This document shows, in pieces, positions 29,139 through 56,024 of a stretch of DNA of 64,000 bases. Under the pieces are notes generated by a model, which saw only the letters and a program-made list of their open reading frames with translations, was not told the DNA's origin and searched no databases. Made by a program: the position numbers and the translations under genes. Source of the stretch: Rhabdobacter roseus (lineage in GTDB: Bacteria; Bacteroidota; Bacteroidia; Cytophagales; Spirosomataceae); NCBI RefSeq assembly GCF_014202275.1, contig NZ_JACHGF010000007.1, positions 186,001 through 250,000 on the forward strand, written 5' to 3'. The number at the start of each line of letters is the position of its first letter. Positions within the stretch are counted from its first letter, which is position 1.

Positions 29139-30164
29139 CTATTTCACTTTGGCAAAATCGGCGGCCAGGGCATCTAGCTCCGCTTCGGTGAGGTACTTGG
29201 AGTCTACCACCAGGCGGTATCGGAACGTTTGCGATTCGCCTTTTTTCAACTGAAAATTTTTCGCCTCTTTCCCGTTGGTAAACTCCTTGGTACCCATAGG
29301 GTTGATGGCAAACAGGCCGTAGCCGCGGGCGTGCCAGTACGAGGGGTAGCTTACGTTTTTGGGATGATCAATGATGGCTACGCCGATCTTCTCGTTGCCA
29401 ATTTGCCCCGTAAGGTTACACCAGACGGAACGCTTGGCCCACACATCTTCCCCCTTGATGCCTTCTTTGTTGGTATAACTACCCGTTACCCCCGTGTTAT
29501 TGAGGGCAGGTACTTTGGTAGCGATGCCGCTGGCATCCGTAAATAGCTCGGGCTTGTTGGAGGGGTGCTCGAGCTGGCGAGCCAGGCGGACGGCAAACAC
29601 GCCCTCTTTGGAGTCCTTGAACGTAATGTCTTCCTGCGTAGCGGTCAGGGTGGTGATGCGGTCGATAGTGCGCTGCTCGCCGACGGCTCCAAACACATAG
29701 GTCGTTGTTTCTTTTAGCATCAGGCCACCATCCTGGTTGATCCAGTCGGCAGTTACGGTGAGCTCACCCTTCTTCTTGCCACTCTTCATGGACTTAACGC
29801 CCGTATGCAGGATATCCCCGTACTTGTGCTTGGTTCGGTCAACGGCGGCGGAGCTGTTCCAAAAATCGTATCCGTTCACATCCCCGTGGTTGAGCCATAC
29901 CCCCACGTGATGCGGGTGATCTACGCGCTCGTCGGGCCGGGGGTCCATGGGCCAGCCGCGGGTAATGGCCGTGCCGTGGGCCGTCTGGACGGGATAAAGT
30001 ACCGCTTTCTTCAGATCACCGCCCGGATAAATGTAGGCCGTAAAAGGTTTCCCGTCTACGGTAACGGTCACTTTCTTCTCGGCTTCCAGATGGGTCAGTT
30101 CCACGCGTTGAGCCGTAGCTACCCCGGCGTAGAGGGCCAGGGCAATCGTTGCAATATTTTTCAT
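29139..30164 (-). CDS. secreted DUF6807 (PmoA-like) protein
   Basis: 341 residues from the ATG at 30164, with a Sec signal peptide ending VATAQ. The DUF6807 pattern is clear: GGDLKKAVLYPVQTAHGTAITRGWP-type start, then RVDHPHHVGVWLNHGDVNGYDFW (about 85-107), and near the end YWHARGYGLFAINPMG. This family often sits beside Gfo/Idh/MocA oxidoreductases and sugar-modifying proteins; the molecular role is unknown. It is the last gene of the block transcribed from the Tat/Sec enzyme cluster, 90 bases after the oxidoreductase gene. Confidence 0.85.
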   Translation of the reverse strand: MKNIATIALALYAGVATAQRVELTHLEAEKKVTVTVDGKPFTAYIYPGGDLKKAVLYPVQTAHGTAITRGWPMDPRPDERVDHPHHVGVWLNHGDVNGYDFWNSSAAVDRTKHKYGDILHTGVKSMKSGKKKGELTVTADWINQDGGLMLKETTTYVFGAVGEQRTIDRITTLTATQEDITFKDSKEGVFAVRLARQLEHPSNKPELFTDASGIATKVPALNNTGVTGSYTNKEGIKGEDVWAKRSVWCNLTGQIGNEKIGVAIIDHPKNVSYPSYWHARGYGLFAINPMGTKEFTNGKEAKNFQLKKGESQTFRYRLVVDSKYLTEAELDALAADFAKVK

Positions 30165-30254
30165 AAAAAAGCAATTTGACAAACAGGTAGATTGGGATCT
30201 CTAAAGCAGAAAAAAGGGCCAGCACCAGGAGTAGTACCGACCCTTTCTCTCCGC

Positions 30255-31598
30255 CTAACTCAATACGATGTCCGTTTTCTTGGTATCCCAGGTTACGCGC
30301 TTGCCGGTATGCATGGCCTGCGTGGCCATGATATTCGCTACCGAATGGTTGAAGCCCGCCCGGGCCGGTGCGTTGGGTTGCTTGCGGTTGCGGATACACT
30401 CCATCCAGTTGCGCATATGCATGGAAGTCATGGGGTCGGCACCGGTGTTGGCACCGGTTTCCATCTTGATGCCGCCGGTACCCAGTTCCATTTTGGGCAG
30501 CATATTGGCCTGCATATTCATAGCCTTAGCCGCATTGGCGCTCAGACCGCCATCAGGAGTGATCTGGTTCGTATCCAGGTTAATCATCCCACCGTTGGAG
30601 TAGTAGTATTCCTTCACGTCACCAGCGGCCTGGTGCATCCGGGATGAGTAAATAACCTGGAAGCCTTTTTCTTTGTCGTCAAAAGGACCGTAGTCAAATA
30701 CCGCCGTAAAGGTGTCGGCATTGGTACGGCCATCTTTCCATACATACACGCCCCCGTTGGCTACCACGCTGCGGGGTGCTTCGAAGCCCGAGAACCAGTG
30801 TACCGTATCAATCTGGTGCGACATCCACTGTCCCGGAATCCCCGAGGAGTACGGGTAGAACAGGCGGTACTCCAGGTAGTAGCGCGGGTTCCAGGCTACT
30901 TTGGGACGGTTGAGCAGGAAGCGATCCCAGTCTACATCTTCCTTCTTGATGGAATTGACCAGGTCAGGACGGCGCCAACGCCCAGGCTGATTGACGTTCC
31001 AGGTCATTTCTACCATGGAAATATCGCCAAACTTGCCCGAGCGAATAAAATCATTGGCGGCCCAGTAGTTGGGAGCACTGCGGCGCTGCGATCCAACCTG
31101 CACGATTTGTTTAGAAGCTTCTACCGTTTTCAGAGCCAGCTTGGCGTCTTCCAGCGATTCGGCAAAGGGTTTCTCCACGTATACATCCCGGCCTGACTTC
31201 ACGGCGTCGACGCAGTGCAGCGCGTGCTGGAAGTCCGCCGTACTGATAATGACGGCATCGATGTCTTTACGAGCCAGGAGTTCGTCGTTATTGCGGGCTT
31301 TAAAAAAGTCTTTGGAAGCCGATGGTTTATCTTTAAAGTACTTTTCGGCTTCGTCCCGACGGCGGTTCCAGATGTCAGAAACCCCCACAAATTCAAAATT
31401 CATGGCCTTGGCGTGGTCGGCAAAGCTGGGAGCCAGGGAACTACGGAACCGATCCGAGAAGCCAATGATACCTACCCGTACGCGGTCGTTGGCGCCTACA
31501 ATACGGCGGTAGCTGCCTGCGCTCATGGCGTTGGCCGAAAGGGCCACACCCGCCGTAGCCAGGGCAGTTTTCTTTATAAAGTCTCTTCTGCTACTCAT
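30255..31598 (-). CDS. Tat-exported Gfo/Idh/MocA-family oxidoreductase
   Basis: 447 residues with a twin-arginine signal (SSRRDFIKKTALATAG), so it is likely folded with its NAD(P) cofactor before export. Rossmann start VGIIGF at about 42-47, the family Glu-Lys-Pro at 142-144 (YVEKPFAESL), then the C-terminal beta-sheet substrate domain with WMSHQIDTVHWF. Relatives oxidise or reduce sugar C3 hydroxyls. Its neighbours (tandem DUF1080 protein, TIM-barrel isomerase, DUF6807) suggest a periplasmic 3-keto-glycoside route. Substrate unknown. Confidence 0.9.
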   Translation of the reverse strand: MSSRRDFIKKTALATAGVALSANAMSAGSYRRIVGANDRVRVGIIGFSDRFRSSLAPSFADHAKAMNFEFVGVSDIWNRRRDEAEKYFKDKPSASKDFFKARNNDELLARKDIDAVIISTADFQHALHCVDAVKSGRDVYVEKPFAESLEDAKLALKTVEASKQIVQVGSQRRSAPNYWAANDFIRSGKFGDISMVEMTWNVNQPGRWRRPDLVNSIKKEDVDWDRFLLNRPKVAWNPRYYLEYRLFYPYSSGIPGQWMSHQIDTVHWFSGFEAPRSVVANGGVYVWKDGRTNADTFTAVFDYGPFDDKEKGFQVIYSSRMHQAAGDVKEYYYSNGGMINLDTNQITPDGGLSANAAKAMNMQANMLPKMELGTGGIKMETGANTGADPMTSMHMRNWMECIRNRKQPNAPARAGFNHSVANIMATQAMHTGKRVTWDTKKTDIVLS

Positions 31599-31738: not shown

Positions 31739-33106
31739 TTACTTGATTTCTTTTACTTTCAGGCTCCGGAACGAAACCAAATCGCCGTGATCCTGCAAGA
31801 GTAGGTTTCCTTCTTTGGCCAGGCCAAAACCTTCAAAATCCTTGTACTTGGAGCGGGCTACCAAGGCTTTATAAATGGCCCCACCGCGCTTGTATTCCAG
31901 TACTTTTTGTTCGTTCAGAAAATGCTCCACGGTACCATCCGGGTGCACCACCAGGCGGCCTCGGTTCCACTCGCCAATTTTCTTCTGGGAGTTGCCGGGC
32001 TTTTCGGCGGGAATCAGGTCGTATAGAGATGCCAGCGTGCGGTTTCCTACTACGCCCATTTTAGCGTCAGGGTGCTTGGCGTCGTCCAGTACCTGGTACT
32101 CCAGGCCCAGGCCGGACTTTCCTTTGGCGTCCAGGCCTTCGTTGACGAAGTACTTCACGCCACTGTTGGCTCCTTCGGTGAGCTTAAACTCAAATTGAAA
32201 CTCAAAGCCGGGACCAAATTTCTCGCGAGTCACGATGTCATTACCGGTTTCAGAGCCGTCAGACTTGGCTACGGTAATGGTACCGTCCTGGTAGCTCCAG
32301 CGCTTCGGCGGAAACTCCTGGCTGTTGTAACCACGCCAGTGCTCGGCCGTTTTGCCGTCGTACAGCAGCTTCCAGCCCTGCGATTTTTCCAGCTCGGAAA
32401 GGTTGTTGGGCAGCATGTTTACCACCCGAATATCGGCCGTCGGACTGGGCTTGAGGTCCGTGGTTTTGATGCGCACGTTTTTCCAGCGTACCTGCGTACC
32501 TTCCTGCTCTTTTTTATTGATGGAATGTACCTGTAAGCAAATAAAGCCGCTGGGCGTCATGTCGTCAATGAGGTGCGCCACGGGCACATCGTTCACAAAA
32601 GTACGGATGGAATTGCCGATGGCTTCCACGCGGTACTTGTTCCACTCGCCCTTCTTAAAGGCTTTCCGGCCCGACTGATTGATGTCGACGGGGTACAACC
32701 AGCCACGGCGGGCTTCGTCATAGATACCTCCCGACCAGGCGCGGTCGCTGGGGTCGATTTCAATCTGATATCCGTGCACGCGGCCGTCCTGGTAGTCGGG
32801 CTTAGAGAGGCTACGAATCTGAATTCCGGAGTTCAGACTATTATCGACCATCACATCGCACTCAAAAATGAAATCGGAATAGTCTTTCTCGGTAGTCAGA
32901 AACGAGTTGGGGGTATTCAGGGTGGAAGTACCGATGATCATCCCGTCCTTTACCTCGTACTTGGCCTTGCCGTTCAGCTGTTTCCAGCCGGTAAGGTCCT
33001 TGCCGTTAAAGAGCATTTGCCAGCCATCTTTCGACTTTTGGGCGTATCCTGTGGTCAGTGCACCTGCGAGTAAGGCTGCCATCAGCCAAAAACGTTTTTT
33101 CTTCAT
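31739..33106 (-). CDS. secreted protein with two DUF1080 (3-keto-disaccharide hydrolase/lyase) domains
   Basis: 455 residues, Sec signal ending GYAQ. Two copies of the concanavalin-like DUF1080 fold: residues about 27-215 (WQMLFNGKDLTGWKQ start, SGIQIRSLSKPDYQDGRVHG, EIDPSDRAWSGGIYDE) and about 243-455 (WKLLYDGKTAEHWRGY start, GANSGVKYFVNEG, GLGLEYQVLDD). DUF1080 proteins act on 3-keto-glycosides, by hydrolysis or elimination/hydration. Most relatives have one domain; the tandem form may combine two steps or two specificities. Which copy is active cannot be told. Confidence 0.88.
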   Translation of the reverse strand: MKKKRFWLMAALLAGALTTGYAQKSKDGWQMLFNGKDLTGWKQLNGKAKYEVKDGMIIGTSTLNTPNSFLTTEKDYSDFIFECDVMVDNSLNSGIQIRSLSKPDYQDGRVHGYQIEIDPSDRAWSGGIYDEARRGWLYPVDINQSGRKAFKKGEWNKYRVEAIGNSIRTFVNDVPVAHLIDDMTPSGFICLQVHSINKKEQEGTQVRWKNVRIKTTDLKPSPTADIRVVNMLPNNLSELEKSQGWKLLYDGKTAEHWRGYNSQEFPPKRWSYQDGTITVAKSDGSETGNDIVTREKFGPGFEFQFEFKLTEGANSGVKYFVNEGLDAKGKSGLGLEYQVLDDAKHPDAKMGVVGNRTLASLYDLIPAEKPGNSQKKIGEWNRGRLVVHPDGTVEHFLNEQKVLEYKRGGAIYKALVARSKYKDFEGFGLAKEGNLLLQDHGDLVSFRSLKVKEIK

Positions 33107-33230: not shown

Positions 33231-34145
33231 TTAGCTCAGTGGGTTTTTCAAGGTACCCGTGATGTACTCCTTGTTCGTCACCGCGCAGGAGTAGGCGGTT
33301 TTGTCAGGATCTGGTACGCCGTCCAGCTCAACAACGGCCCAGCCCTTAAACTTGATTTTATCCAGGGCTTTGAATACCGCGGGTACATCTACCCGGCCTT
33401 GCCCCAGCTCCACAAACTTGTAGCCACTTTTGGTGTCGGCGGGTTTGGTATCTTTCAGGTGCAGCGCATGGAGCATGTTTTTATACTGAATGACCGCCTT
33501 CTCGGGTTCGCCTCCGCCCTGCTTGTAGTGAGCAATGTCCAGCAGCAGCTTCACGTAGCGCGGGTCCATACCCTGCACAATCTGGTCAATCTCTTCGGGC
33601 GTTTCGCCCAGCTGGTGCATGTGGTTGTGGTACACGGCCTGCACGCCCAGATCGGCCGTTTGTTTTCCGATCTCGTTCATGACGGTGGCCAGGCGTTTGA
33701 GCTCCTCGGCGGAGGGAGCGCGGTCTTTGGGGCGGGCGCTGTTGGTGAGCTGCATGGAATTCCCACCCAGGGCTTTCACAAAGCTGGCGTGCGCCACGTG
33801 CATATCGATGGTACTGGCCTCTTTGGCCGGGTCGATCTCCACGTTACCACTCGAAAACATACAAAGGTACATCCCGTTGGCCTGTAGCATGTCCCGCAGT
33901 TCGGAGACTTTGTTTCGGTAGGGACCAAAGGTATTGGCGCGTAGTTGAATGCCTTTGTAGCCCAGCGAGGCTAAGTCTTTAATAGCCTGCTCGTCTTTTC
34001 CGCCCCAGGTAATGGCCGAATAGCCAATCTTGATGTTGCTTTTTTTGAGTAATGCTTCGCCCCATACGGAGTCCCAGGCGGGTAGTGCAAGCGCAGAAGC
34101 GGTAAGCAGAGAGGTTTGCTTTAAAAAGGATCGTCGGTCGGTCAT
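33231..34145 (-). CDS. Tat-exported sugar phosphate isomerase/epimerase-like TIM-barrel protein
   Basis: 304 residues from the ATG at 34145, with twin-arginine signal TDRRSFLKQTSLLTASALA. The xylose-isomerase-like TIM barrel (AP endonuclease 2 family) is visible in KIGYSAITWGGKDEQAIKDL, GYKGIQLRANTFG, VYHNHMHQLG (metal His), YVKLLLDIAHYKQGGG (metal Asp/His) and GWAVVELDG. A longer frame to 34355 crosses a terminator and is rejected. Related secreted proteins act as hydratases/isomerases of keto-sugars. It is separated from the DUF1080 gene by 124 bases. Confidence 0.88.
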   Translation of the reverse strand: MTDRRSFLKQTSLLTASALALPAWDSVWGEALLKKSNIKIGYSAITWGGKDEQAIKDLASLGYKGIQLRANTFGPYRNKVSELRDMLQANGMYLCMFSSGNVEIDPAKEASTIDMHVAHASFVKALGGNSMQLTNSARPKDRAPSAEELKRLATVMNEIGKQTADLGVQAVYHNHMHQLGETPEEIDQIVQGMDPRYVKLLLDIAHYKQGGGEPEKAVIQYKNMLHALHLKDTKPADTKSGYKFVELGQGRVDVPAVFKALDKIKFKGWAVVELDGVPDPDKTAYSCAVTNKEYITGTLKNPLS

Positions 34146-34317: not shown

Positions 34318-35994
34318 TTAGTAGCCAGTATTCTGTGGGAAAGCGGAGTTTCCACCTTCTACCCGATCAATCTGGGTTTGGGGGATTGGGCGCAGTACGT
34401 GGAAAGCCTTGATGTTAGGGGCCGCCTGGTTGTTGTGCAGTTTTACTCGCTCTACCAGTACTCCCCAGCGTTTGAGGTCAAACCACCGCATTTGCTCGCC
34501 AATCAGCTCACGCTCGCGCTCTTCCATGATAAAATCCATGGTGAGCTGCGCGGAAGTAATTTCCATGGCGGCTTGTTTGCCCGGCCAAGCGGCGCGACGA
34601 CGTACCATATTGATATTAGCCGTAGCGTCCTCTACTTTGCCTTGCTTAAACTGGGCTTCGGCCAGCATTAGGTAGGTATCGGCCAAGCGGAAAGCAATGT
34701 AGTCACGGACACCCCCTTCGGCGGTCAGGTCGGCGCGATTGCCATCAATGTGCTTGCGCAGGGCCGGGAACCGGCGCTCATCGTACATACTGGGCGTCAG
34801 TACCTGATAGGGCCGCTTGGCTCTTTCAGCTTCGGGCATTTCATATCCGGGATCGAAAACAGCGGTATCTCCTAATGCAACCGTTATCCGGGCTTTTGAC
34901 TTGTCATAGTTGGTATTAAAAGAACCCGGGTTATTACAGTAGTATACATCCTTGAAGGTTTTGTAGTAGCGGCTGTCGTTCACGCGGTTGGCCAGGTTAA
35001 AGACCGTATTCAGGGTATACTTCGTTGGCATATACCGCTTGAAGGGGCGTCCGTTGGTCACATCGCGACGCATACCGGGCATATTGTCGTACTCCATCAG
35101 AAAATACAGGTGCGAGTTATTGCCGCCGCCATTGGTAAGCGGGTTGTTGGTATACTGTATCCCAAATACCACCTCGTTGTTCATTTCGTTACCCTGGCGG
35201 TGTACATCTCCAAAGTCGGCCAGCAAAGCGGCACCGGGTGTAGCAATAACCTGTTTGAACAAAGCCTCGGCTTTGGCAAAGTCATCGGCCGCTTTGGCTT
35301 CGGAAGTGGCCTTGGTCAGGTACACTTTGCCCAACAGATGCTGGGCAGCCGCTTTGGTCACCCGCCCGTAGTTGGGGTGGCGGTAACGCGCATCCAGATC
35401 CGGAATGCCTTCTTCCAGGTCTTTGATGATCGCCGCGTACAACTCGGCTATCGTAGCCCGGGTGGCCACTTTGGTAGGGGCCTTGGTTTCCGTGAGCCGC
35501 AAATCTACCCCACCAAATAACTGCAGGAGGATAAAGTACTGGTGGGCCCGGATGAATCTCACCTCGGCCACGCGCTCTTTTCTTACCGCATCAGCAATAC
35601 CTGATACGTTGGGAGCCCGGTCAACTACCGTGTTGGCGGCATTGATGGTTTCGTAAAACTGATTCCATACCTCCTGAACGTGCCCCGAACGGGCGTCAAA
35701 GCCTCCGTCGTAGGTGTTCATAAACTTAAAGCCACCGTCGGCACCGTTCTGGTAGGTATCCGTACCAAAGACGGTAAAGTTATTGCCACGCTCGGTACCG
35801 TACCAGTTACGCAGGCCGGAGTATACGGCATTGACGCCGTCGTTGAAGCCATTCGGCGTGTTGAGGTAGTTATCACCAATGCCGGATATTACCTCCTCGT
35901 CCAGTACGCTTTCGCTGCACGACTGTCCCACAAACAGAGCCACTACCAGAGCGCCTGTCTTGAGTATGCTTGCTAATTTTATATTTGCTTTCAT
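34318..35994 (-). CDS. SusD/RagB-family outer-membrane lipoprotein (pair 1)
   Basis: 558 residues with a lipoprotein signal ending FVGQSC (Cys26). SusD features: NTPNGFNDGVNAVYSGLRNWYG near the N-terminus, TPR-like helices with VRKERVAEVRFIRAHQYFILLQLFGGVDLRL, and the C-terminal YDERRFPALRKHIDG and FIMEERERELIGEQMRWFDLKRWG segments. It caps the SusC pore on the cell surface and binds the glycan. It follows susC1 by 31 bases in one transcript. Confidence 0.95.
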   Translation of the reverse strand: MKANIKLASILKTGALVVALFVGQSCSESVLDEEVISGIGDNYLNTPNGFNDGVNAVYSGLRNWYGTERGNNFTVFGTDTYQNGADGGFKFMNTYDGGFDARSGHVQEVWNQFYETINAANTVVDRAPNVSGIADAVRKERVAEVRFIRAHQYFILLQLFGGVDLRLTETKAPTKVATRATIAELYAAIIKDLEEGIPDLDARYRHPNYGRVTKAAAQHLLGKVYLTKATSEAKAADDFAKAEALFKQVIATPGAALLADFGDVHRQGNEMNNEVVFGIQYTNNPLTNGGGNNSHLYFLMEYDNMPGMRRDVTNGRPFKRYMPTKYTLNTVFNLANRVNDSRYYKTFKDVYYCNNPGSFNTNYDKSKARITVALGDTAVFDPGYEMPEAERAKRPYQVLTPSMYDERRFPALRKHIDGNRADLTAEGGVRDYIAFRLADTYLMLAEAQFKQGKVEDATANINMVRRRAAWPGKQAAMEITSAQLTMDFIMEERERELIGEQMRWFDLKRWGVLVERVKLHNNQAAPNIKAFHVLRPIPQTQIDRVEGGNSAFPQNTGY

Positions 35995-36025
35995 AAATAC
36001 TGTCTTTTTCTTGGTTCTGAACTAC

Positions 36026-39000
36026 TTAGAACTTTGCATTAATACCAAACGTGATCACCATCGTAGCCGGGGAGAGATCCGACCCAATGGCCCGGTTCTC
36101 GTTACTCGGGCCGTTATCCAGCTCTACTTCCGGGTCTATTCCCTTGTATTTGCTGCGGTATTCCGAGAAAATAAACGGCTGCTGGATGCTGGAATAAACG
36201 CGAAGGCTCTGCATTTTTAGCTTACTGGCCCAATTAGCCGGTACGTTATAACCCAGGTTGATGTTACGTACTTTCAGGAACGAACCATCAAAGTAGCGCA
36301 GCGTGGAGCTATAGCGCGGGGTCTCCTGGTTTACGTTCGGACGGGGGAAATCGTTGGTGGGGTTGGTCGGCGTCCAGTAGTCGATGTCCAGGTTGTTGTA
36401 GCGGCCGGCCAGGGTGTTGTTGCCCTGGTGGAAACCACTCACGATAAACTGGCCGGCCCGGGCGTAAAGGAAGAACGCCAAATCAATTCCTTTGTAGCTA
36501 AAGCGGTTGGTTACCCCGGCAATAAAATCAGGGATGGCAGAGCCCAAAATAACCCGGTCATCGGCGTTGATAAGCCCGTCTCCGTTTACATCCTGTACTT
36601 TGATCTCACCCACTACGCTCTGGTACTTTCTGGCTTCCTCGGCTTCGTTGGTTTGCCAGATTCCGATTTTGCGGTAATCAAAGACTACCGAAAGGGGTTG
36701 ACCAATGAAGCGCCCCGCGGCAACGTCATCCACTTTTCCGTTGGCCAGTTCTACAATTTCCTCTTTGTTACGACCAAACATCCAGTCGGTAGTCCAGGTG
36801 AAGTCGCCCTTGTCAACATTAACCGTAGTCATCGTTAGCTCGATACCCCGGTTACGGGTATGGCCGATGTTGGTTGTAAAGCCACCAAAACCGGTCGAGT
36901 TAGGTAGTGGTTGGGGAGCCAGCAGGTCGGTGGTGTTGGTGATGTAGTATTCCAACGAACCCGATATCCGGCCGCTCCAGAAACTGAAATCCAAACCGGC
37001 GTTAGAAGTAGCTGAGGACTCCCAACGGAGGTTAGGGTTTCCGATCGAACCGGGACGATACCCAAAGGCCGCCGTGTTATCCCAGGCGTACGAGGTACGT
37101 GACAGCAGGGCCTGGGTTTGGTAGGGGTTGATGGCCGTGTTTCCGGTCACGCCGTAGCTCAGGCGTAGTTTCAACACATCCAGGGCCCGGATCGTCTGCA
37201 TGAAGGGCTCGTCGGCAATATTCCAGCCTACGGCTACGGAAGGAAAGTACCCAAACTGGTTGTTAGCCCCGAAACGCGACGAACCATCCGCCCGCATGGT
37301 AGCGGTCAAGAGGTACTTCTCTTTGAAATCGTATTGGACCCGAGCCATGTACGACAGCAGCGCCCACTCAGACAAGCCTGTGCCAACACCATTTACCAAG
37401 CTGGCGTTGCCTAGGTTATAGAACTGTTGGGTCTCGGCCGGTACCCCGGTAACTCTGATCTCCGACCTTTCATCATGATTCTTTTGGAACGACTGCAACA
37501 GCGTTACGTTCAGGTTGTGTACCTGGTTGAATTGCTTGGTGTAGGTAAGGATATTTTCCAGCGTATAGTTGAACTGGAACCGGTTAAATACATTGGCGGT
37601 GGGATCGGCCCCACGGCGGGCGTTGGTTTGGCGACCAAAGAATTGCCCGTAGCGATCAATTTTGAAGTCAGGACCGAAGTTGAAGCGATACTTCAGACCG
37701 CTGATAATATCTACTTCGCCGTACAGGCTGTTGAAGATCCGGTAGTTTTTGCGCTCGTCAATGATCGCACCCGGCACGATCTCGGCGTAGGGGTTGGTAC
37801 GCAGACCATCCTGCGTGGGCAGGAAGATCATTAGCCCATTATCATCAAACGGCTTCCCAAGGGGGTTTTCGGCCAAGGCACCTCCCAGTGGGTTGAAGTT
37901 TTCGCCGTTCCTCAAGCTGTATACACCCAGCGTAGAAGTACCTATCTTGATCCGATTATTGATCCGGTGGTCAAGGTTTACCCGGAACGTAAAGCGGGTA
38001 AAATCCTGGTTTTTTACTACGCCTTTATCCTGGAAGTAATTGCTAGAAATATTGAACTGGGTTTTTTCGGTACCACCCGATACCCCAATCTGGTAGTTCT
38101 GGATGGCTCCGGTACGGAGCAAAGCGGCGGGGTAGTCGGTACTACGACCCATCTGAATCGACTCCATCTCGACGGGTTCAAACAAGGCTTCGTCGGTGGT
38201 GTAGGCATTCACGGCCCGTCGCGACTCGCGCTTGTATTCGGCAAATTCGGCCCCGTTCATCACATCAATACGGCCCAGCGACTGGTTTATACCCGTGTAG
38301 GCATCCACACTGACCGTTGTACGGCCGGGCGTACCGCGCTTAGTAGTAATAATCACGACCCCGTTGGCCCCCCTCGAACCATAAATGGCCGTAGAAGAAG
38401 CATCTTTAAGTACCTCCATGGAGGCAATGTCGTTGGGGTTGATGTCTTCAATACCACTTGCCAAGGGAATACCATCCACTACGAACAGAGGATCGTTGGA
38501 GGCATTGAACGAACGGCGCCCCCGGATACGAATCTGAGGGGTAGCTCCGGGCTTGCTCCCGGCCATGTTCACGTCCACCCCAGCCGCGCGGCCCTGCAAA
38601 GCCTGCTGCGCATTGGTGATGGGTAGTTCACTAATTTCCTTAGCGCTCACGGACGAAATGGCACCCGTCATTTGGCTCTTTTTCTGGACACCATACCCTA
38701 CTACCACCACCTCACTGAGGGACTTGAGATCGGAAGCTAGCGTGATGTTTACGGCACTCTGATTGCCAACGGTAATCTCCTGGGTTACGAACCCTACGGC
38801 TGAGAAAACCAGTACTGAACTGGCCGACGGTACGCTAATCCGGAACTTGCCGTCTGCATCGGTATTGGTACCTTGGGTGGTACCTTTAATAACCACCGAT
38901 ACGCCGGGAATGGAGCTGTTGTCGTCGGCGGAGAGGATTTGCCCCGTTACGACTCTTTCCTGAAAAATAATGTGTGCCGCCAGCGTGGAACTAGCCGGAG

Positions 39001-46928: not shown

Positions 46929-47005
46929 AACGAATGGTAAAAGGGCTAGGGTACCTGAGCAGCGGGCCGTGTCCACTACACGGTCAAGCTTTTATGCTTA
47001 CTTAG

Positions 47006-48133: not shown

Positions 48134-48541
48134 TTACGGTTTCTGAACAGTAACGTAAACAGTATAAGGCTTCCGCACCTTTCGGTTACCGGAAACAACT
48201 GTGTACACTTTGGGATTAGCCAAATCGGAGAAATCCACTTTGCCGGTAATCTTGGGGTCCAGCTTGGCGTCAGTCACTAACGAAAACTGAGGGAAGAGGT
48301 TCCGTAGGTCCGTACCGTAAAATACCTCCACTTGAATGGTTTGGGCGGTGGTATCAATCACGGGGTTTTTGGTGCGGACGGTTTGGAAATCCCCGCCCAG
48401 CAACTCAAAGTTACTCACGAAACACTCGGCCCGATCGGTGATGAGGAGTCCGTCCTCATCTACGGGAAAATCATTCTTGCAACCTACCCAGGCAACGGAT
48501 ACCAGCAAGAGTACGCAGGCTATTCTAAAATATTTTTTCAT
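48134..48541 (-). CDS. small lipoprotein with DUF5018-like Ig domain
   Basis: 135 residues from the ATG at 48541; lipoprotein signal ending AWVGC. The mature part is one beta-sandwich of the DUF5018 type: VEVFYGTDLRNLFPQFSLV, KITGKVDFSDLANPKVYTVV and KPYTVYVTVQ. Such domains act as spacers in surface glycan-binding lipoproteins. It lies 46 bases downstream of susD2 and 16 bases upstream of the larger lipoprotein, so the two may form one surface unit. Confidence 0.75.
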   Translation of the reverse strand: MKKYFRIACVLLLVSVAWVGCKNDFPVDEDGLLITDRAECFVSNFELLGGDFQTVRTKNPVIDTTAQTIQVEVFYGTDLRNLFPQFSLVTDAKLDPKITGKVDFSDLANPKVYTVVSGNRKVRKPYTVYVTVQKP

Positions 48542-48587
48542 TGCAATGTTCATTTATATTACAAAAATCTCACTAGGATAGCCTGGC

Positions 48588-50432
48588 TTACATCCACGGC
48601 CGGTTTTGGGTCAGGTTCGGGTTACGATCCCGCTCTCCGGGCGGAATCCGGAAGATGTAGGCCTGCTCGTACACGCGCTCGGAGGCATTTTGGTAGTAGC
48701 GCTGCTGCTGAGCACCGCGCGTGTCGATCCGCCATACGCCCTCCGTGAGAGGTCCACCCCATACGCGTTCGATGGCCCGCCAGCGGCGCAGGTCGAAGCC
48801 CCGGTGGCCTTCGCCCAGCAGCTCGATGATCCGCTCCTGCTCAATGGCGTCAAAGAAAGCTTGTTTGCTGGCCGTTTTGTCTGCCTTCAACGGAGGCAAA
48901 TTACCCCGGTGACGAATTTTATTCACCAGCTCAATGGCGTCGGCTTGGGGACCGTTGATTTCGTTGGTCGCTTCGGCGTACATCAGGTACACATCGGCTA
49001 GGCGCATCACGGGGAAGTCATAATCGCCGTCGCTCCGTCCCTGCCCGGCGTAGTTGCGCAGGAACTTCCGGAATACGTAGCCTGAGTTGCTACCGTCGGT
49101 ATTATAGGAAGTATATCGAACGCCGTTGATAGTCACGGGTTGATTCCAGGTTTGGTAAATAAAGGGTACCCAGCCGGTCGACTGTAGACCAATCATCCCG
49201 ATGCTCATTTCGTAATCCCACATGATGGAAGACTTCATGCGGTAGTCGCGGTTGGCGTAGCTCTGCGGATTCACGGCCGAGTTTGGCGTGGTACGAGCCG
49301 CGGGATTAGCCGAAGGGTTCATCGGAATCATCGGTTCCATAAAGTCGCCGGTGATGGTCGATTGGTAGCGATCGGCGATTTCGTAACGCGGAGAAACCCA
49401 GCATTGGGATCCTTCATGGGAGCGCCCGGCCACGTCGCGCATGAGTTCTTCACCCTGCGCGGTACCTACGCCACCGTGCGTGAAAGTCATGATCATCTCG
49501 GGATTTCCGTTCGCAATGGGCGTAAACAGATAGTAGTAGTTGGGTAGTTTTTCGGCTTTCCCTAGCTCATCGATTTCACCGGGTTCTCCTCCCCGGAACA
49601 GCGTCAGACCGAAATCCTGAATCACTTTACGGAAGTCCTCGGCGGCGGCGGCGTAGGCCGCATCAGCGGCGGCAGGATCACTCTTAAAGGTTTCGAGCTC
49701 CGGCCAGCCAAACTTATTCCAGCACGCCCAGTAGAGCTGCAACTTACCCCGGAAGGCCAGTGCGGCAGGCTTGCCGGCCCGCCCTATGGCGGCTCCCTTC
49801 ACAGGTAGCTTTTCGTAGGCATAGGTAAAGTCAGCCATGATGGAGTCCTTCACCTGGGCGATGGGCATCCGGGTAATGTCTGCTACCTCCGCGTTGGCAT
49901 TCACAATGTTGCTGATGTAGGGTACATCCCCCCACATGGAGATCAAGCGGAAGTACACCATCCCGCGGAGCAAGCGAGCCTCCCCCACAATCGCTTCCAG
50001 GTTCTCCACCGAGGAGGGGCTGGCCGTTTGCAGCATTATATTTACGTTATCGATTACGTAGTTGGCGCGGTTAACGCCCCCGTAGAGGTAACGGTACATT
50101 TTATCGAAGCTTCCCGCGTAGCCCGAAGGGTTGTAGTTACCGTTATGGTACGCATCTCCAAGCCTTAAATTTTCATTTGTTGCGCTGGTTCCGCGGGTCC
50201 GGACGTACTCCCCGTGGCCGTCAAGGTAGTAGTCGCGATCGAATAGAGGACGAATGGACGAATAGGCACCCATGAGGGCAAAGGTAGCGTCGGCTTCCGT
50301 TTTCCAGAAAGCGTTGGTTCCCAGCTCGGTTGTGGGCGCCTGCTCGAGCAGATCTTCCTGGCAGGAGCTTGCCCCCAGCATGAAGCCCGTCAAAGCCGCA
50401 ACGGACAGTATTTTTGAAGTAATTCTTTTCAT
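48588..50432 (-). CDS. SusD/RagB-family outer-membrane lipoprotein (pair 2)
   Basis: 614 residues from the ATG at 50432; lipoprotein signal ending GASSC. SusD hallmarks: TTELGTNAFWKTEADATFALMGAYSS near the N-terminus, VGEARLLRGMVYFRLISMWGDVPYI in the TPR-like core, and FFDAIEQERIIELLGEGHRGFDLRRW near the C-terminus. Partner of susC2, 19 bases downstream of it. Longer than SusD of pair 1 and not closely similar, so the two pairs probably bind different parts or different glycans. Confidence 0.95.
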   Translation of the reverse strand: MKRITSKILSVAALTGFMLGASSCQEDLLEQAPTTELGTNAFWKTEADATFALMGAYSSIRPLFDRDYYLDGHGEYVRTRGTSATNENLRLGDAYHNGNYNPSGYAGSFDKMYRYLYGGVNRANYVIDNVNIMLQTASPSSVENLEAIVGEARLLRGMVYFRLISMWGDVPYISNIVNANAEVADITRMPIAQVKDSIMADFTYAYEKLPVKGAAIGRAGKPAALAFRGKLQLYWACWNKFGWPELETFKSDPAAADAAYAAAAEDFRKVIQDFGLTLFRGGEPGEIDELGKAEKLPNYYYLFTPIANGNPEMIMTFTHGGVGTAQGEELMRDVAGRSHEGSQCWVSPRYEIADRYQSTITGDFMEPMIPMNPSANPAARTTPNSAVNPQSYANRDYRMKSSIMWDYEMSIGMIGLQSTGWVPFIYQTWNQPVTINGVRYTSYNTDGSNSGYVFRKFLRNYAGQGRSDGDYDFPVMRLADVYLMYAEATNEINGPQADAIELVNKIRHRGNLPPLKADKTASKQAFFDAIEQERIIELLGEGHRGFDLRRWRAIERVWGGPLTEGVWRIDTRGAQQQRYYQNASERVYEQAYIFRIPPGERDRNPNLTQNRPWM

Positions 50433-50451
50433 ACCTATAAAAATCTTTGAA

Positions 50452-53400
50452 TTAGATACCAATGTTGATACCAACTGAATACGATTTATTGATCGGGTAC
50501 ACGTTGCTGCGGTTACCGTCTTTTTCGGGATCAAGGCCCCGGAACTTGGTCAGTGTAGCGATGTTTTCCGACGAGCCGAAGATCCGAACGCTAGCCAGGC
50601 CAATTTTACGCAGCACGGTCTTGGGTACATTATAGCCTAACTGCACGTTTTTCACCCGGATGTAGCTCAAATCGTCCAGCCAGAAGGTACTTTCGGTTGT
50701 GTTATTACTTCCTCCTAGACGGGGCCAGGCTCCGTCGCGGTTTTCCCACGACCAAGGATTCTCCCAGTGCCCCCAGGTAGAAGCGTAGCGCTGGGTACCG
50801 AAGTTTACGTTGTTGTGGTTGTTGAGCCAGAAGTCCTTACGACCCGTAGCCCCTTGCACCAGCACCACGATGTCAAACCCGCGCCAGGAGGCATTGGCGT
50901 TCAACGCTAAGAAGGTCGTAGGGCGTTCACGCTGAAATTTAGAATGGGCAATTTTATCGTTATCGTCAATCCGGCCATCACCGTTCACGTCCTTACGCAG
51001 AATATCGCCCGGCGAGGCACCTTGGGGCGTGGCGTTGTACACATCCTCCCAGGTCTGAGCAATCCCCATATCCTCCCAAGCATACACATAGCGGTACGGC
51101 ATGTTTAGGAATACCCAACCTTTCCCCAGGAACTCGTTCCACTTCTCCAGGGTTGTGACGTTTTTCGAGCCGTTCAGGTTGACGCCGTAGGCGACCTGTC
51201 CGATCTGGTCGCGCCAGGTTAGGTTCAGCTCCACCCCGCGGTTACGGAGGTTCCCGATGTTGCGGCGGGGCGCGGTGTAGGCTCCCGTCAGGTGGATCGA
51301 CATCTCCGAAGGCCGGTTCATGCCCGTCGTGAGGCGGTCGTAGAAGTCGATTTCGGCGGTCAGGCGGTTGTTGAGGAAGCCCAGGTCCAACCCTAGGTTA
51401 AATACGGAAGTCGTTTCCCAGGAAAGATCCCGGTTGACCATCTTGCGGTTCACGAAGCCCTTCTGGATGCTGTTCCCCAGGAAATAGTTGCTGGCGGCCA
51501 GCGTTTCCTGCTGCTCGTAGCGACCCACCCCAGCGTTGTTTCCGAGACTACCGTACGACACCCGTAGCTTACCCGAGCTCAGGAAACGATCGGTAAAAGC
51601 ACTGATGAAGCTCTCTTCGGTAAAGCGCCAGCCCAAAGCCGCCGAAGGGAAGAAGCCAAACCGACTTCCGTCTAAGAACTTGGAAGAACCGTCGGCGCGG
51701 AAGTTCACTTCGAGCAAGTAGCGGTCAAAGGCCGTGTAGTTGAGGCGGCCAATGTACGAGCGAAGCCCTTCGGCGCTGGAGCTCCCCCCTGTGCCTTGAA
51801 TGTCGGTCAGGGCAGCATCGATTTCGTGCAGGGACGGGTGCAGACGGTCGTTACGGGAAGAAGACTGGTAGCGATCGTACCAGTATTCCTCGCTGTATAC
51901 GGCCAGGGCGCTCAACGTGTGGTTTTTCCCAAAGGAGGTGTTGTAGGTCAATCGCCCGTTGAGCATCGTTTTGTAGCCGGTGTTGGTAAAGTTACCTACC
52001 CCCGCGTTATCCGTAACGTACGCCCGGGCCCCAAAGGCTCCCTGCTGGAAGTTGTAGGCGCGGTTGGGCATGTTGGCGTTCCAGCGAAACTGGTTGTCGT
52101 AGTTCAGGGCGTAGTCAATACGAGCCGTTAGGCCTTTGATCGGCGACCAGTCCCAGAACAAGTTGGCGTTGGCTTCCTGGCGGTTCTGGTAGCTCAGGTT
52201 GTTGATGTAGTTGGTGTAGGGATTGTAGGCCTGGGGATCTTCGTTGTAGGCCATGGTCCCCCCGTAATAACCCGAGACCGGATCGTAAGGAACAATACCG
52301 GCAATGGCGTACTGCATGTCGTAGCCCGCGGTGTTGTTGTCCTCGGTGAAACCATCCGCCAGGAAGTAGGTAAACTTCGACCAGTTCCCCTGGAAACGTA
52401 CCCCTACGTTCATATTTTTGTTCAGCTTATAATCAAAGTTGAAGCGGGCGTTGTAGCGCTTAAAGTCGTTGTTGATCTGCAAACCTTTTTCGTCCATCAA
52501 ACCAATCGAGATGAAGAAGTTGGACTTGTCATTGCCGCCGGAGGCCGAAAGGTTGTGGTTCTGCATGGTACCGTTACGCATGATGATGTCCCACCAGTCG
52601 GTGTTGGGATAGCGCAGCGGATCTACCATACCCAGGGCCATCCACTGGTCGATGGTACCGTCCCGGAAGAGGTAGTTAGAACGCAGCGTACCCACGTCGG
52701 CCGCGCGCTGGTGCAGCGTCAGGGCGCGGGGGTAGTCGTCCATGAAGTCGATGGCCCGGGTTGGTACCTGTACGGCGTAAGAGCCCGTATAGTTGATGCT
52801 GGCCCGTTCCTGCCCTTTACCCGACTTGGTGGTGATCAGGATAACCCCGTTGGCCGCCCGTGATCCGTACACCGATGCCGAGGTAGCGTCTTTCAGTACC
52901 GATACGCTCTCGATGTCGTGGATGTTGATCCGGTTGATGTCTACGTCGGGCATGCCGTCGACGACGATCAGCGGACCGGCACCATTGACCGTACCCAAGC
53001 CGCGAATCATCAGGCTGGCGTTATTACGGCCCGCCATACCCGTCGACTGCGTCACGGCCATACCGGGTACCAAACCCGCCAAACCCGACGATACGTTGGC
53101 CAGCGAGCGGCTGGCAATTTTTTCGTCGATGGTCACGGTGGCTACCGCGCCCGTGACGTTGGCGCGCTTCTGGGTACCGTACCCAACTACTACGACTTCG
53201 TCCAGCGCCCGGTCTTCTGACTGAAGGACCACTTCGACGGTCTGGCGGTTGCCTACTTCTACCTCCTGGGTGGCATAGCCAATAAAGCTAAACACCAGCA
53301 CGGAGCTTGCATTGGTGACGTTGAGCGAGTAATTCCCGTCGGTGTTGGTGGTAGTACCGTTGGCGGTACCTTTTTCTACCACACTCACACCGGGCATTCC

Positions 53401-53955
53401 TTCTTTGCTATCAGAACCCGTCACGCGGCCCGTAATGGTGATAGCCTGAAGGCGGCGGGCGTTGGTCAACATTTCCGAAACAGCTACCGACCGAAAGGGA
53501 GCCTGCATACCCGAAGCGGTATTGCGGCTGGCCAGCTGAATGGGCACGAGCTGGTTGGAGGGGACTACCAATTCCGTTACCGACACCCTTTTCGTGGGGT
53601 TTTCCGTAACGTGAATCGTTTCGTTGACCCGGCGAAAGCTCAGGCCCGTCTCCTGCGAAATGGACCGAAGTACCTTACCCAGGCTCTCGTTCGTAAAATC
53701 CTGACTGAGTTTCTTATTACTCACGATTTTTCGGTCGTACTGAAAGTTGAGGTCCGTTTTCTCAACAATCTTCACGAACGCATCTTCCAGCTTCATATTA
53801 CGCAGATTTGCCGAAAGGTAAATGTCCTCAATACTTTTTTCCTGGGCCTTCAGGTCAGAAGCGGCCAATAGTCCCACGAATAAGCACTGGATAATTCCTC
53901 CTAGTAGTGCGTACCTTGTCATTGCTACAATTTGTGGTAGTAGTTTGAATTTCAT
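50452..53955 (-). CDS. SusC/RagA-family transporter with STN signalling domain (pair 2)
   Basis: 1167 residues. Signal peptide (to about 37), then an STN (secretin/TonB short N-terminal) domain (about 45-118) with LRNMKLEDAFVKIVEKTDLNF, then a regulatory-like domain starting ITITGRVTGSDSKEGMPGV, plug from DEVVVVGYGTQKRANVTGAV, the SVYGSRAANGVILITTKSG motif, and a barrel. The STN domain is the part that contacts a FecR protein, and a FecR/ECF sigma pair lies directly upstream. So this transporter is probably the signal-transducing one of the locus. Confidence 0.96.
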   Translation of the reverse strand: MKFKLLPQIVAMTRYALLGGIIQCLFVGLLAASDLKAQEKSIEDIYLSANLRNMKLEDAFVKIVEKTDLNFQYDRKIVSNKKLSQDFTNESLGKVLRSISQETGLSFRRVNETIHVTENPTKRVSVTELVVPSNQLVPIQLASRNTASGMQAPFRSVAVSEMLTNARRLQAITITGRVTGSDSKEGMPGVSVVEKGTANGTTTNTDGNYSLNVTNASSVLVFSFIGYATQEVEVGNRQTVEVVLQSEDRALDEVVVVGYGTQKRANVTGAVATVTIDEKIASRSLANVSSGLAGLVPGMAVTQSTGMAGRNNASLMIRGLGTVNGAGPLIVVDGMPDVDINRINIHDIESVSVLKDATSASVYGSRAANGVILITTKSGKGQERASINYTGSYAVQVPTRAIDFMDDYPRALTLHQRAADVGTLRSNYLFRDGTIDQWMALGMVDPLRYPNTDWWDIIMRNGTMQNHNLSASGGNDKSNFFISIGLMDEKGLQINNDFKRYNARFNFDYKLNKNMNVGVRFQGNWSKFTYFLADGFTEDNNTAGYDMQYAIAGIVPYDPVSGYYGGTMAYNEDPQAYNPYTNYINNLSYQNRQEANANLFWDWSPIKGLTARIDYALNYDNQFRWNANMPNRAYNFQQGAFGARAYVTDNAGVGNFTNTGYKTMLNGRLTYNTSFGKNHTLSALAVYSEEYWYDRYQSSSRNDRLHPSLHEIDAALTDIQGTGGSSSAEGLRSYIGRLNYTAFDRYLLEVNFRADGSSKFLDGSRFGFFPSAALGWRFTEESFISAFTDRFLSSGKLRVSYGSLGNNAGVGRYEQQETLAASNYFLGNSIQKGFVNRKMVNRDLSWETTSVFNLGLDLGFLNNRLTAEIDFYDRLTTGMNRPSEMSIHLTGAYTAPRRNIGNLRNRGVELNLTWRDQIGQVAYGVNLNGSKNVTTLEKWNEFLGKGWVFLNMPYRYVYAWEDMGIAQTWEDVYNATPQGASPGDILRKDVNGDGRIDDNDKIAHSKFQRERPTTFLALNANASWRGFDIVVLVQGATGRKDFWLNNHNNVNFGTQRYASTWGHWENPWSWENRDGAWPRLGGSNNTTESTFWLDDLSYIRVKNVQLGYNVPKTVLRKIGLASVRIFGSSENIATLTKFRGLDPEKDGNRSNVYPINKSYSVGINIGI

Positions 53956-54081: not shown

Positions 54082-54121
54082 CACTAGCTACTATCGAGTA
54101 GTTTCATTTTCCTGGGTTATC

Positions 54122-55171
54122 TTATTTAATTATTACCTCTCGGTCGGTGACTACAAAAGAAAAACGGTTGGGGTAACGGCAAATCTCCAGAATATAATCA
54201 ATGGACCGGTTCTCGAACTTCCCGCTCAAACGCCAATCGGGGCTCATTTTCACCTCACCCTCAATCCTTATTTTTACGCCGTACCACCTTTCCAGCCTGC
54301 GTACGATTTCGGCAAAGTCGGCTTTCTCAAAGTGCAGAACCCCGTCTTTCCAACCCAGCAATTCATATTTATTGTAGGTACTTACCGTCATGGCTTTCTT
54401 CTGCTTTTCAAACGTCACCATCTCGTCCCGTACCAGGTAAATCTCATTTTGGGCCGCTTCATCCGCTCCGTTGCTTACGCCTACCTTGCCCTCCACCACG
54501 GCTACCCGCACGTCCTGATTTTCGGGATAAGATTCGACGGCAAACTTCGTCCCCAGTACTTTGATGTGCAGCTCATCGGTGTGGATAATGAAGGGTGCCT
54601 TCGGGTTGGAAGCGACCTCAAAGAAGGCTTCTCCCTCCAGGTACACTTCACGTCGATCGCCAGGAAATTTTTCGGGGTAAGAAAGGGTGGATCCGGCATT
54701 GAGTTTAATCACACTCCCATCCATTAGCTTGATGGTCAGCTGCTGGCCATTGGCTACCTCCTTGCGCGCCAGGCTGGGCGTAGGGGTGCTCAGAGAAGTC
54801 CAGTATTGTTTTCCGGCCCACAGGCCTGAGAGTAGGATCACTGCCGCAGCTACCCGAAATAGCAACCGACCAATTCGCTTTCCAGCACTTTCCTCTTCCG
54901 TATCCCACGCGTCGTCCTGTTCCAGGCTAGCCGCCTTCACCTTCTCCCACTCCTGCTGCACCGTATCACTATCTAGCTTATTTTCCTTAAATGACAATGC
55001 CGCATAGAGCTCTTGCGCTTTTTCTACTTCGGCCCGTTGTCCGGGATTGTCGCTGAGCCACTCTTGCCATTCCCGGTTAGACTGGGGGCTATCACCGCGC
55101 ATCCAGGCCAAAAAATCATCATCCAGCAAAAAATCCGAAGCTCGAAAATGAACGTACCGCTGCTTTTCCAC
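54122..55171 (-). CDS. FecR-family anti-sigma factor
   Basis: 349 residues starting at a GTG (55171). N-terminal cytoplasmic domain (about 1-100) with DFLAWMRGDSPQSNREWQEWL, one membrane helix (about 107-123), then the FecR periplasmic domain with ELTIKLMDGSVIKLNAGST-like and EKFPGDRREVYLEGEAFFEV strands (about 145-185), and a C-terminal LERWYGVKIRI / DYILEIC secretin-like end. Pairs with the ECF sigma factor 223 bases upstream and with the STN domain of SusC2 downstream: the normal trans-envelope switch. Confidence 0.93.
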   Translation of the reverse strand: MEKQRYVHFRASDFLLDDDFLAWMRGDSPQSNREWQEWLSDNPGQRAEVEKAQELYAALSFKENKLDSDTVQQEWEKVKAASLEQDDAWDTEEESAGKRIGRLLFRVAAAVILLSGLWAGKQYWTSLSTPTPSLARKEVANGQQLTIKLMDGSVIKLNAGSTLSYPEKFPGDRREVYLEGEAFFEVASNPKAPFIIHTDELHIKVLGTKFAVESYPENQDVRVAVVEGKVGVSNGADEAAQNEIYLVRDEMVTFEKQKKAMTVSTYNKYELLGWKDGVLHFEKADFAEIVRRLERWYGVKIRIEGEVKMSPDWRLSGKFENRSIDYILEICRYPNRFSFVVTDREVIIK

Positions 55172-55394
55172 AAAATCTGTTGAAATTGTCTTTTGCTAGT
55201 ATAAAGCTAGAATATTACCACAGTGACCCTCTCTGATTCATTTTTTTTCTAAAAAAAATACTTTCCTCAGCACTCGCTGTTATCAGGGGTACTTTGAAAG
55301 GGTACTTTGACCCTAAAAAAGGAGGGTAGAGGTAAAAAAAGCATAGCCGCTTGGAAGGGTACTTGAGCCAGGGGCAAAAAAAGCCAGGGCCGGG

Positions 55395-56024
55395 TTACCT
55401 GAGCAAGAATAAGGTACTTAGCAGAAAAGGAACTACGCTCATCAGTACCGACACCGGCTCCGCCGTAAACTCTTCGGTGAGGGCGTCCAGGGCTTTGTAG
55501 ATGAGCTTGTAGACGGCCCGGGTGCTGATGTTCATGGTATGCGCAATGTCGGCAAACGACTGCTCCCCGTAGTACTTCAGGTACAGGGCTTCCTTTTGGC
55601 GGGCGGGTAGTTTTTCCACGCCACGCTGCAGTTGGCTCAAACGATCGCTTGCCGTTTGGTCCCGGATCATCTGGGCTTCGATGGAAAGCTCGGAGTGGAG
55701 GTTAAATGTATCGGGGTCAATCGTGAGCCGTAAAGAGTCTGACTTCATGCGCTTTAGCACCAGACGACGCAGCGACGACAACAGGTAGTTTTTAATGGAA
55801 GTCGTTGGCCCCAGGAAAGTGCGGCGTTCCCAAATGGTAAGAAATAGAATCTGGAGACAATCCTTGATTTCGTCCTCATCGTCCTGAAAACGCTGGCAGT
55901 AGTTAAACAAGAAACTGTAGTGCTGCTTGAATATTTCCTCATAAACGATAGTATTCCCCATTTTCAAGGCTTCCCACCGCTCCGCATCGGAACTACTCGC
56001 CACTACATTATCCTCCATTTTCAT
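55395..56024 (-). CDS. ECF RNA polymerase sigma factor with hydrophobic C-terminal tail
   Basis: 209 residues from the ATG at 56024 (a TTG at 56039 and an ATG at 56018 are alternatives). Region 2 is in YEEIFKQHYSFLFNYCQRF and DEIKDCLQILFLTIWERR; region 4 in LPARQKEALYLKYYGEQSFADIA and MNISTRAVYKLIYKAL. The last 16 or so residues (LMSVVPFLLSTLFLLR) form a hydrophobic segment that could insert in the membrane. It should switch on susC2D2 when FecR releases it. 223 bases precede fecR. Confidence 0.9.
   Translation of the reverse strand: MKMEDNVVASSSDAERWEALKMGNTIVYEEIFKQHYSFLFNYCQRFQDDEDEIKDCLQILFLTIWERRTFLGPTTSIKNYLLSSLRRLVLKRMKSDSLRLTIDPDTFNLHSELSIEAQMIRDQTASDRLSQLQRGVEKLPARQKEALYLKYYGEQSFADIAHTMNISTRAVYKLIYKALDALTEEFTAEPVSVLMSVVPFLLSTLFLLR

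Follow-up and report, generated by a model that had tools for sequence, protein, structure and literature searches.

The 64,000-nucleotide stretch of the Rhabdobacter roseus genome (Spirosomataceae; 6.9 Mb) analysed here, positions 186,001 to 250,000 of contig NZ_JACHGF010000007.1 and hereafter the window, contains a run of 17 genes on the minus strand (56039-29139) which is best read as two utilisation units arranged head to tail. Unit 1 (56039-40219) would be a polysaccharide utilisation locus (PUL) for a non-sulfated, glucuronic acid (GlcA)-containing, glycosaminoglycan (GAG)-like polymer, and unit 2 (39898-29139) an old module, near-universal in the family; we give this reading a probability of about 0.6. 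An initial annotation of the window had described a single 27-kb PUL of 18 genes on one strand, probably directed at an alginate-, glucuronan- or pectin-like uronan. The observation itself is real: when the open reading frames (ORFs) of the run, 17 proteins, were scored against Pfam at E 0.001, the sigma/FecR pair, two SusCD pairs, two lipoproteins, four lyase-like proteins and the TIM barrel/DUF1080/oxidoreductase/DUF6807 set were all confirmed, as was the absence of any sulfatase or classical glycoside hydrolase (GH) family among these proteins. The single strand holds as well, but the genes number 17, one of which encodes a 165-residue FecR relative that has no FecR domain. Two units explain the run better than a single PUL does, and the likely target moves from alginate or pectin to a GAG-like or other GlcA polymer.

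The two units differ in their distribution and are mostly placed apart. With a cut-off of E 1e-90, SusD2, the SusD of unit 2, has homologues in 186 of 200 genomes from the family, small ones included, versus 41 of 200 for DUF4466, a lipoprotein of unit 1, which is present in only 3 of the 395 genomes of a phylum sample (own genome included). Both genes could be placed in 33 of these 41 genomes, the eight others having no listed SusD2 place (seven) or lying on short contigs (G678). They are neighbours in six (own genome, G672, G677, G680, G682 and G696) and apart in 27, counting the best SusD2 place only and different contigs as apart; the DUF4466 match of G159 is a broken fragment. In a survey of unit 2 covering 40 stretches, taken from 37 different genomes so as to span many genera (G678 being too short upstream), one or more keto-type genes come after SusC2-SusD2 in 28/37 genomes and the oxidoreductase in 23/37, and the gene order of the unit recurs across many genera. 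Unit-1 genes stand beside SusC2-SusD2 in six of those surveyed (two Telluribacter, Arundinibacter, Persicitalea, G672 and Dyadobacter diqingensis), two of these adjacencies being seen via overlapping stretches. Among 16 named Spirosomataceae loci (L077, on a short contig, left out), the units are adjacent in eight.

The boundary between the units is also marked in the window. The PL33 gene that ends unit 1 is separated by 320 bp from a FecR relic (39401-39898), itself 300 bp from SusC2, all other gaps being at most 223 bp. The first of these gaps holds a terminator-like hairpin (40186-40161, 11-bp stem, T-rich tail), about 30 bases past the PL33 stop. It is the only strong T-tailed hairpin on the minus strand between 28500 and 57000, and none of 200 dinucleotide shuffles of this region contains one. 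Bacteroidota promoters follow the pattern TTG-N18-22-TAnnTTTG; scanning the minus strand across the locus gave no full site of this kind.

The 165-residue relic, which retains a cytoplasmic part and a transmembrane segment and has lost the FecR domain, belongs to unit 2, because FecR proteins hold the same position in other genera: a 353-residue protein with FecR and FecR_C in L187, and proteins of 262-278 residues with FecR alone in L177, L178, L194 and L195. No FecR domain match is found at this position in the window, in Telluribacter or in the two further relatives scanned. The series from L187 through these four loci to the window, where no sigma gene directly adjoins the relic, looks as if it reflected stepwise loss. 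That this ORF is a meaningless fragment was considered and rejected, as it is kept in several genera and matches domain-bearing FecR proteins elsewhere.

Unit 1 opens with an extracytoplasmic function (ECF) sigma factor (55395-56039; Sigma70_r2/r4), 62-69% identical to those of Telluribacter and Arundinibacter, and a complete FecR anti-sigma regulator (54122-55171; FecR and FecR_C). These are followed by the SusC1 TonB-dependent transporter (50452-53955), whose N-terminal STN-like region falls below the Pfam cut-off, the SusD1 lipoprotein (48588-50534; the ORF opens with TTG and its true start is likely further downstream), a 139-residue lipoprotein without Pfam match (48134-48553) and the DUF4466 lipoprotein, presumably surface glycan-binding (47125-48117; PF14725, 487 bits; PDB 4ei0, 266 bits). 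The start of the latter was corrected to 48117, the ORF opening at 48198.

The part of unit 1 from SusC1 to DUF4466 is kept as a cassette well beyond the window. A scan of named genomes by DUF4466 gave 129 related places, and the best 80 were used. Of these, 73 contain SusC1 and 78 SusD1, the misses being stretches that start downstream of both; the 139-residue lipoprotein exceeds 150 bits in 75 loci, and three others give 140 bits. Downstream, PL35 occurs in 35 of these 80 loci, the family of a 691-residue protein (see below) in 28, PL33 in 22, PL38 in 22, PL8 in 21, GH88-like genes in nine, heparinase-II-like genes in four and sulfatases in two, where PL8, PL35 and the other newly added labels rest on blastp (E 1e-30) against one representative each. 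The PL8 representative scores 330 bits against chondroitinase AC, and that of PL35 734 bits against 8khv. The structure 8khv is that of Spirosoma fluviale GAGase II, whose class takes hyaluronan, chondroitin sulfate and heparan sulfate as substrates. Sequence reaching 6 kb or more from the start of DUF4466 is available for 73 loci, and 54 of these carry at least one of PL8, PL33, PL35, PL38 or two heparinase-like groups. Fusions of PL8 to PL38 (L110) and of a 691-residue-type protein to PL38 (L131) also occur among the cassette loci, and these enzymes are therefore tied together; in Parapedobacter luteus (L110:11016-14270), the PL8 and PL38 lyases form one 1084-residue ORF.

A second sampling within the family, centred on PL33 (18 loci fetched of 28 hits with 68-81% identity), shows the order SusC1-SusD1-lipoprotein-DUF4466-PL38-PL33 in 11 of the 18, more than chance would give, one of the 11 (Telluribacter) having extra genes in between. 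Telluribacter humicola departs from the order of the window in two ways: a PL35 gene separates PL38 from the propeller, and no PL33 follows the propeller. In Telluribacter sp. SYSU D00476 (L079:17856-18935), an additional PF05426 protein (140 bits), not present in the window, lies between BNR_4 and PL33. A metagenome bin named Williamsia (Actinomycetota; L111) also carries the cassette; in the SusD1 tree it falls beside Niastella and Paraflavitalea, and this contig is probably wrongly binned. DUF4466, on which a search of the open literature found no paper, thus gains a consistent context, that of a SusCD-lipoprotein-DUF4466 uptake cassette travelling with GAG-type lyases in several Bacteroidota families.

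The active sites of the unit-1 enzymes were compared with those of solved relatives. The PL33 lyase (40219-42174; Hepar_II_III_C) matches solved PL33 lyases over nearly its full length (403 bits to 8r73 over residues 25-647). BtPL33 residue numbers, taken from PMC11848413, fit chain 8r6z, and eight of the nine active-site and platform residues examined against BtPL33/BcPL33 (PMC11848413) are kept: R103, H154, L174, N238, W239, W242, Y291 and H444 correspond to Arg98, His149, Leu169, Asn231, Trp232, Trp235, Tyr284 and His441, so that the catalytic Asn238/Tyr291/His444 are all present, as Asn231/Tyr284/His441. According to PMC11848413, subfamily 1 (hyaluronan, heparosan) always has Trp at position 242, where subfamily 2, which contains a gellan lyase, has Val; by its Trp235, the window protein is, judging from this alignment, of subfamily-1 type. 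No residue of the window protein aligns with Trp224, part of the hyaluronan-binding (+2) platform of BtPL33, and its specificity may thus differ; in the accessible text of PMC11848413 the subfamily-1 invariants named are W242, L174 and W239, and W224 is not among them. Three further PL33-like genes, 34-37% identical, are found in the own genome (L205, C3:196000-215900, and L206, C10:1-19000), one of them with SusCD- and FecR-like neighbours of its own.

The PL38 lyase (43589-44824; PF05426) scores 283 bits against 3nfv (residues 50-371) and about 230 bits against BoPL38, whose two bases are H243 and Y298 (PMC13169297). Both are kept, as His255 and Tyr310, together with the neighbouring Arg304. 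The PL38 enzymes with which it compares, BoPL38 (8bdq), 3nfv, RiPL38 and the glucuronan lyases, belong to a family whose substrates span alginate, glucuronan and hyaluronan/chondroitin sulfate, so the substrate of the window enzyme is not readable from its sequence. The BNR_4 propeller (42224-43555) is nearest to GH145 propellers (133 bits to 4irt; 181 bits to NF052497, whose cut-off is 700). The catalytic His48 of the GH145 enzyme BT3686 is replaced by Thr54, and a GH145-type hydrolase (rhamnosidase) identity was therefore rejected. The protein does keep the anterior pair His90/His110 of BT3686, a neighbouring Asp and an Arg, and counterparts of these anterior residues have been assigned to the PL42 lyase site (PMC8377490, PMC13169297). 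Reached indirectly through the BT3686 alignment, Asp83, His85, His105 and Arg166 of the PL42 enzyme FoRham1 would correspond to Asp93, His95, His115 and probably Arg164, so that the window protein, a BNR_4 member like the FoRham1 and BT3686 propellers (PMC8377490, PMC13169297), would share the anterior Asp-His-His and Arg and have a PL42/PL24-like lyase site. Of the four lyase-type enzymes proposed initially, three are thus supported, PL33 and PL38 by kept catalytic residues and the PL42-like propeller by this indirect alignment.

Genes for PL33, PL38, PL8 enzymes like chondroitinase AC, GAGase-like PL35 enzymes and heparinase-II-like proteins accompany the relatives of the cassette, and this favours a polymer of the 4-linked-GlcA GAG kind (hyaluronan, unsulfated chondroitin, heparosan) over alginate or pectin as the target of unit 1. 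The proposal of a non-sulfated uronan thereby stands in part: alginate and pectin lose ground to the GAG-type lyases of the relatives, and glucuronan or a GlcA exopolysaccharide is a possible target. Pectin was rejected, no pectin-lyase or GH28 Pfam match being found among the 17 proteins. The closest published parallel is the GAG locus of the marine Roseihalotalea indica TK19036, which combines SusCD with PL8, PL35 and PL38, the families met with the DUF4466 cassette, and is induced on chondroitin sulfate; its RiPL38 cuts hyaluronan and chondroitin sulfate (PMC13027841). Its PL38 bears a 3keto-disac_hyd domain and its PL8 an N-side 'Alginate_lyase' domain (PMC13027841). In comparison, the window locus has PL38 and PL33 without PL8 or PL35, these two being found in sister loci, so that PL38 is the only lyase it has of that set, and it has the toroid/beta-helix and BNR_4 proteins in addition. 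One PL8 gene and three GH88 matches, two above the cut-off and one strongly so, are found elsewhere in the own genome.

Several points weigh against a GAG-like substrate. PL8, PL35 and GH88 are all absent from unit 1 of the window, and none of the counted GAG-type lyases is found in 19 of the 73 cassette loci. Alginate and glucuronan lyases are among the PL38 enzymes characterised so far; the fold neighbours of the beta-helix and many of those of the toroid described below are alginate enzymes; and the propeller suggests a rhamnose-GlcA-type end group, which is not present in GAGs. Finally, R. indica itself grew on chondroitin sulfate and not on hyaluronan or heparin, though its lyases prefer hyaluronan (PMC13027841).

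The main rival substrate is a bacterial GlcA polymer. Unit 1 could be directed at a bacterial or plant GlcA heteropolysaccharide (gellan-like, rhamnose-capped, arabinogalactan-like, or glucuronan) instead of a GAG-type chain, which we regard as doubtful, if the best placed of the alternatives. The cassette genera come mainly from soil and freshwater, which would suit such a polymer, as would the PL42-type residues of the propeller (PMC8377490, PMC13169297), the existence of a gellan lyase within PL33 (PMC11848413), the lack of a counterpart to Trp224 of the BtPL33 platform and the fact that two PL38 enzymes are glucuronan lyases (PMC13027841). On the other hand, Trp235 puts the window PL33 in the hyaluronan/heparosan subfamily and not in the one containing gellan lyase, and PL35 and chondroitinase-AC-type PL8 genes are repeatedly found beside the cassette.

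Under the preferred GAG-like reading, unit 1 would be controlled by its ECF sigma factor and FecR, and SusC1/SusD1, together with the two surface lipoproteins (one of them DUF4466), would bind and import the polymer. PL33, PL38, the PL42-like lyase and possibly the toroid/beta-helix protein would then cut it in the periplasm by beta-elimination, and the unsaturated products would finally be cleaved by a GH88-type enzyme whose gene lies outside the locus. The context of the DUF4466 cassette makes the substrate test direct.

Unit 2 consists, after its FecR relic, of SusC2 (36026-39100; no STN match), the SusD2 lipoprotein (34318-35994; SusD family), an AP_endonuc_2 TIM barrel (33231-34145; start likely corrected to MTDRRSFLK, the ORF opening at 34355), a two-domain DUF1080/3keto-disac_hyd protein (31739-33106; PF06439, 268 bits; 4jqt, 513 bits), a Gfo/Idh/MocA oxidoreductase with an EKP motif, Lys143 (30255-31598) and a secreted DUF6807 protein (29139-30164; ORF opening at 30182). 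By eye, the TIM barrel and the oxidoreductase have twin-arginine translocation (Tat)-like signals, with a Tat profile match for the oxidoreductase, and the DUF1080 and DUF6807 proteins Sec-like ones; these predicted signals fit periplasmic work with a bound cofactor. The keto-sugar-type gene set noted beside the lyases is thus present, with DUF1080, TIM barrel and Gfo/Idh/MocA proteins together in one cluster.

The same three folds occur in the BT2156-BT2160 cluster, which serves 3-keto-glycosides. Unit 2 resembles this cluster (PMC9007349, PMC11501099), whose DUF1080 protein is named 3-ketotrehalose hydrolase (PMC9007349), and differs from it by having a single oxidoreductase, a two-domain DUF1080 protein, and a SusCD pair and a DUF6807 protein of its own. 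Its oxidoreductase moreover reaches only 97 bits against a cut-off of 750 for the glycoside 3-dehydrogenase equivalog model NF058561. Because of this distance, we claim only that unit 2 works like the 3-keto cluster: by analogy, it would probably act on small glycosides in the periplasm, oxidising and cleaving them along a 3-keto route. The initial wording, 'elimination chemistry throughout', is an inference that the oxidoreductase score does not support.

One possibility is that the lyases and the 3-keto module nevertheless form one integrated PUL, in which the 3-keto module takes the place of GH88/GH105 enzymes and breaks down the oligosaccharides that the lyases release from a uronan. We find this unlikely. 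It would account for the contiguous, same-strand arrangement in the window, Telluribacter, Arundinibacter, Persicitalea and one further genus, for the absence of GH88 from the locus, and for the 3keto-disac_hyd domain fused to PL38 in a published GAG locus (PMC13027841). In three Dyadobacter genomes, furthermore, unit 1 is inserted between the FecR relic and SusC2. In the clade of the window it lies upstream of this regulator, and the two positions therefore require at least one rearrangement between the arrangements. In the SusD1 tree (73 rows), each arrangement is clustered, which is compatible with adjacency having arisen once or more than once: a single starred set of seven rows holds all six genomes whose unit 1 lies upstream of the relic, plus a Parapedobacter row placed next to the window with weak support (L088 was labelled as the inserted arrangement, though its FecR relic was not seen).

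These genera also count against our separation of the units: they are together in five related genera, with another arrangement in some Dyadobacter, and a functional tie is therefore possible. So do three other results. No keto-type gene follows SusC2-SusD2 within the stretch in 9/37 places (one at a contig end); a looser terminator definition finds one site in 38900-40500 versus a shuffle mean of 1.9; and among the five relatives whose boundaries were searched for hairpins (seven stretches), only T. humicola has one, in the same place.

The integrated reading is opposed by the 186 family genomes with SusD2 against 41 with DUF4466, by the placement apart in 27 of 33 genomes, by the separate FecR-derived regulator and the hairpin at the boundary, and by the GH88 gene present elsewhere in the genome. 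The single 27-kb PUL thus gives way to two units, with their 320/300-bp gaps, adjacency in 6 of 33 placeable genomes and a near-universal second unit, which would have come beside unit 1 (as SusC2/D2, TIM barrel, DUF1080, oxidoreductase and DUF6807) in the lineage of the window. The combination of lyases and keto-sugar genes, initially thought unusual, is mostly a juxtaposition in a few related genera. In the open literature, a search for DUF1080 with polysaccharide lyase and polysaccharide utilization gave just a xanthan review, and one linking 3-keto with polysaccharide lyase, SusD and hyaluron gave nothing. The two-unit reading corrects the tempting one of a uronan PUL using keto-sugar chemistry, and illustrates how neighbouring genes can take on the look of a pathway.

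What is of most interest beyond this is the DUF4466 cassette together with the 691-residue toroid and beta-helix protein of unit 1 (44853-46928; length after start correction, the ORF opening at 46976), which is conserved, apparently uncharacterised and a candidate new lyase. It was modelled with AlphaFold2 from a 26-sequence alignment (mean predicted local distance difference test score 84). In structure comparison of this model, residues 27-348, an alginate-lyase-like (alpha/alpha) toroid, group with the PL17, PL35 (9o3q), PL5 and PL38 toroids (Z about 26-27.4), no PL8 structure being among the 50 matches listed. Residues 377-682, an AlgE-like beta-helix, group with an alginate epimerase/lyase and the epimerase modules of AlgE4 and AlgE6 (Z 31.1-32.3, root-mean-square deviation 2.1-2.9, 274-276 residues). 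At the sequence level, phmmer of the two-domain protein against PDB sequences gave no match at E 0.001; the family profile reaches AlgE4 at 5.6e-7 over the whole sequence, with no single stretch passing alone. Both domains have many invariant polar residues (27 sequences).

In AlgE enzymes, the YGFDPHE motif provides the catalytic Tyr, Asp and His. In one register, the window protein keeps its Tyr and Glu and not its Asp and His, the repeats making the register unsure, and the catalytic residues typical of PL38 and AlgE enzymes seem to be missing. The toroid may be non-catalytic, since the N-side 'Alginate_lyase' domain of the R. indica PL8 enzyme is inactive (PMC13027841). In Chitinophaga qingshengii (L131:11090-14188), a single 1032-residue ORF fuses the toroid/beta-helix protein to PL38. 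A bolder proposal, in our view improbable, is that this protein founds an unrecognised two-domain lyase family partnering PL38 in the breakdown of a GAG-like polymer, which a SusCD-DUF4466 cassette of its own would take up, and that the repeated placement of the cassette beside or inside the keto module in Spirosomataceae reflects real pathway coupling. What is new here is twofold, namely the GAG-lyase context of DUF4466 and a conserved toroid/beta-helix protein that is possibly an unrecognised lyase.

That unit 1 is an alginate utilisation locus, as its AlgE-like beta-helix, two proteins with the Pfam name 'Alginate_lyase' and the alginate lyase activity of BoPL38 (8bdq) could suggest, is very improbable given the GAG-type lyases beside the cassette in other genomes, the activity of RiPL38 on hyaluronan and chondroitin sulfate (PMC13027841) and the lack of any PL6- or PL7-type Pfam match in the locus.

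Outside the locus, the window encodes a 299-residue WD40-repeat protein (58029-58928), which matches many eukaryotic-type propeller models and adjoins a DivIVA-like gene.

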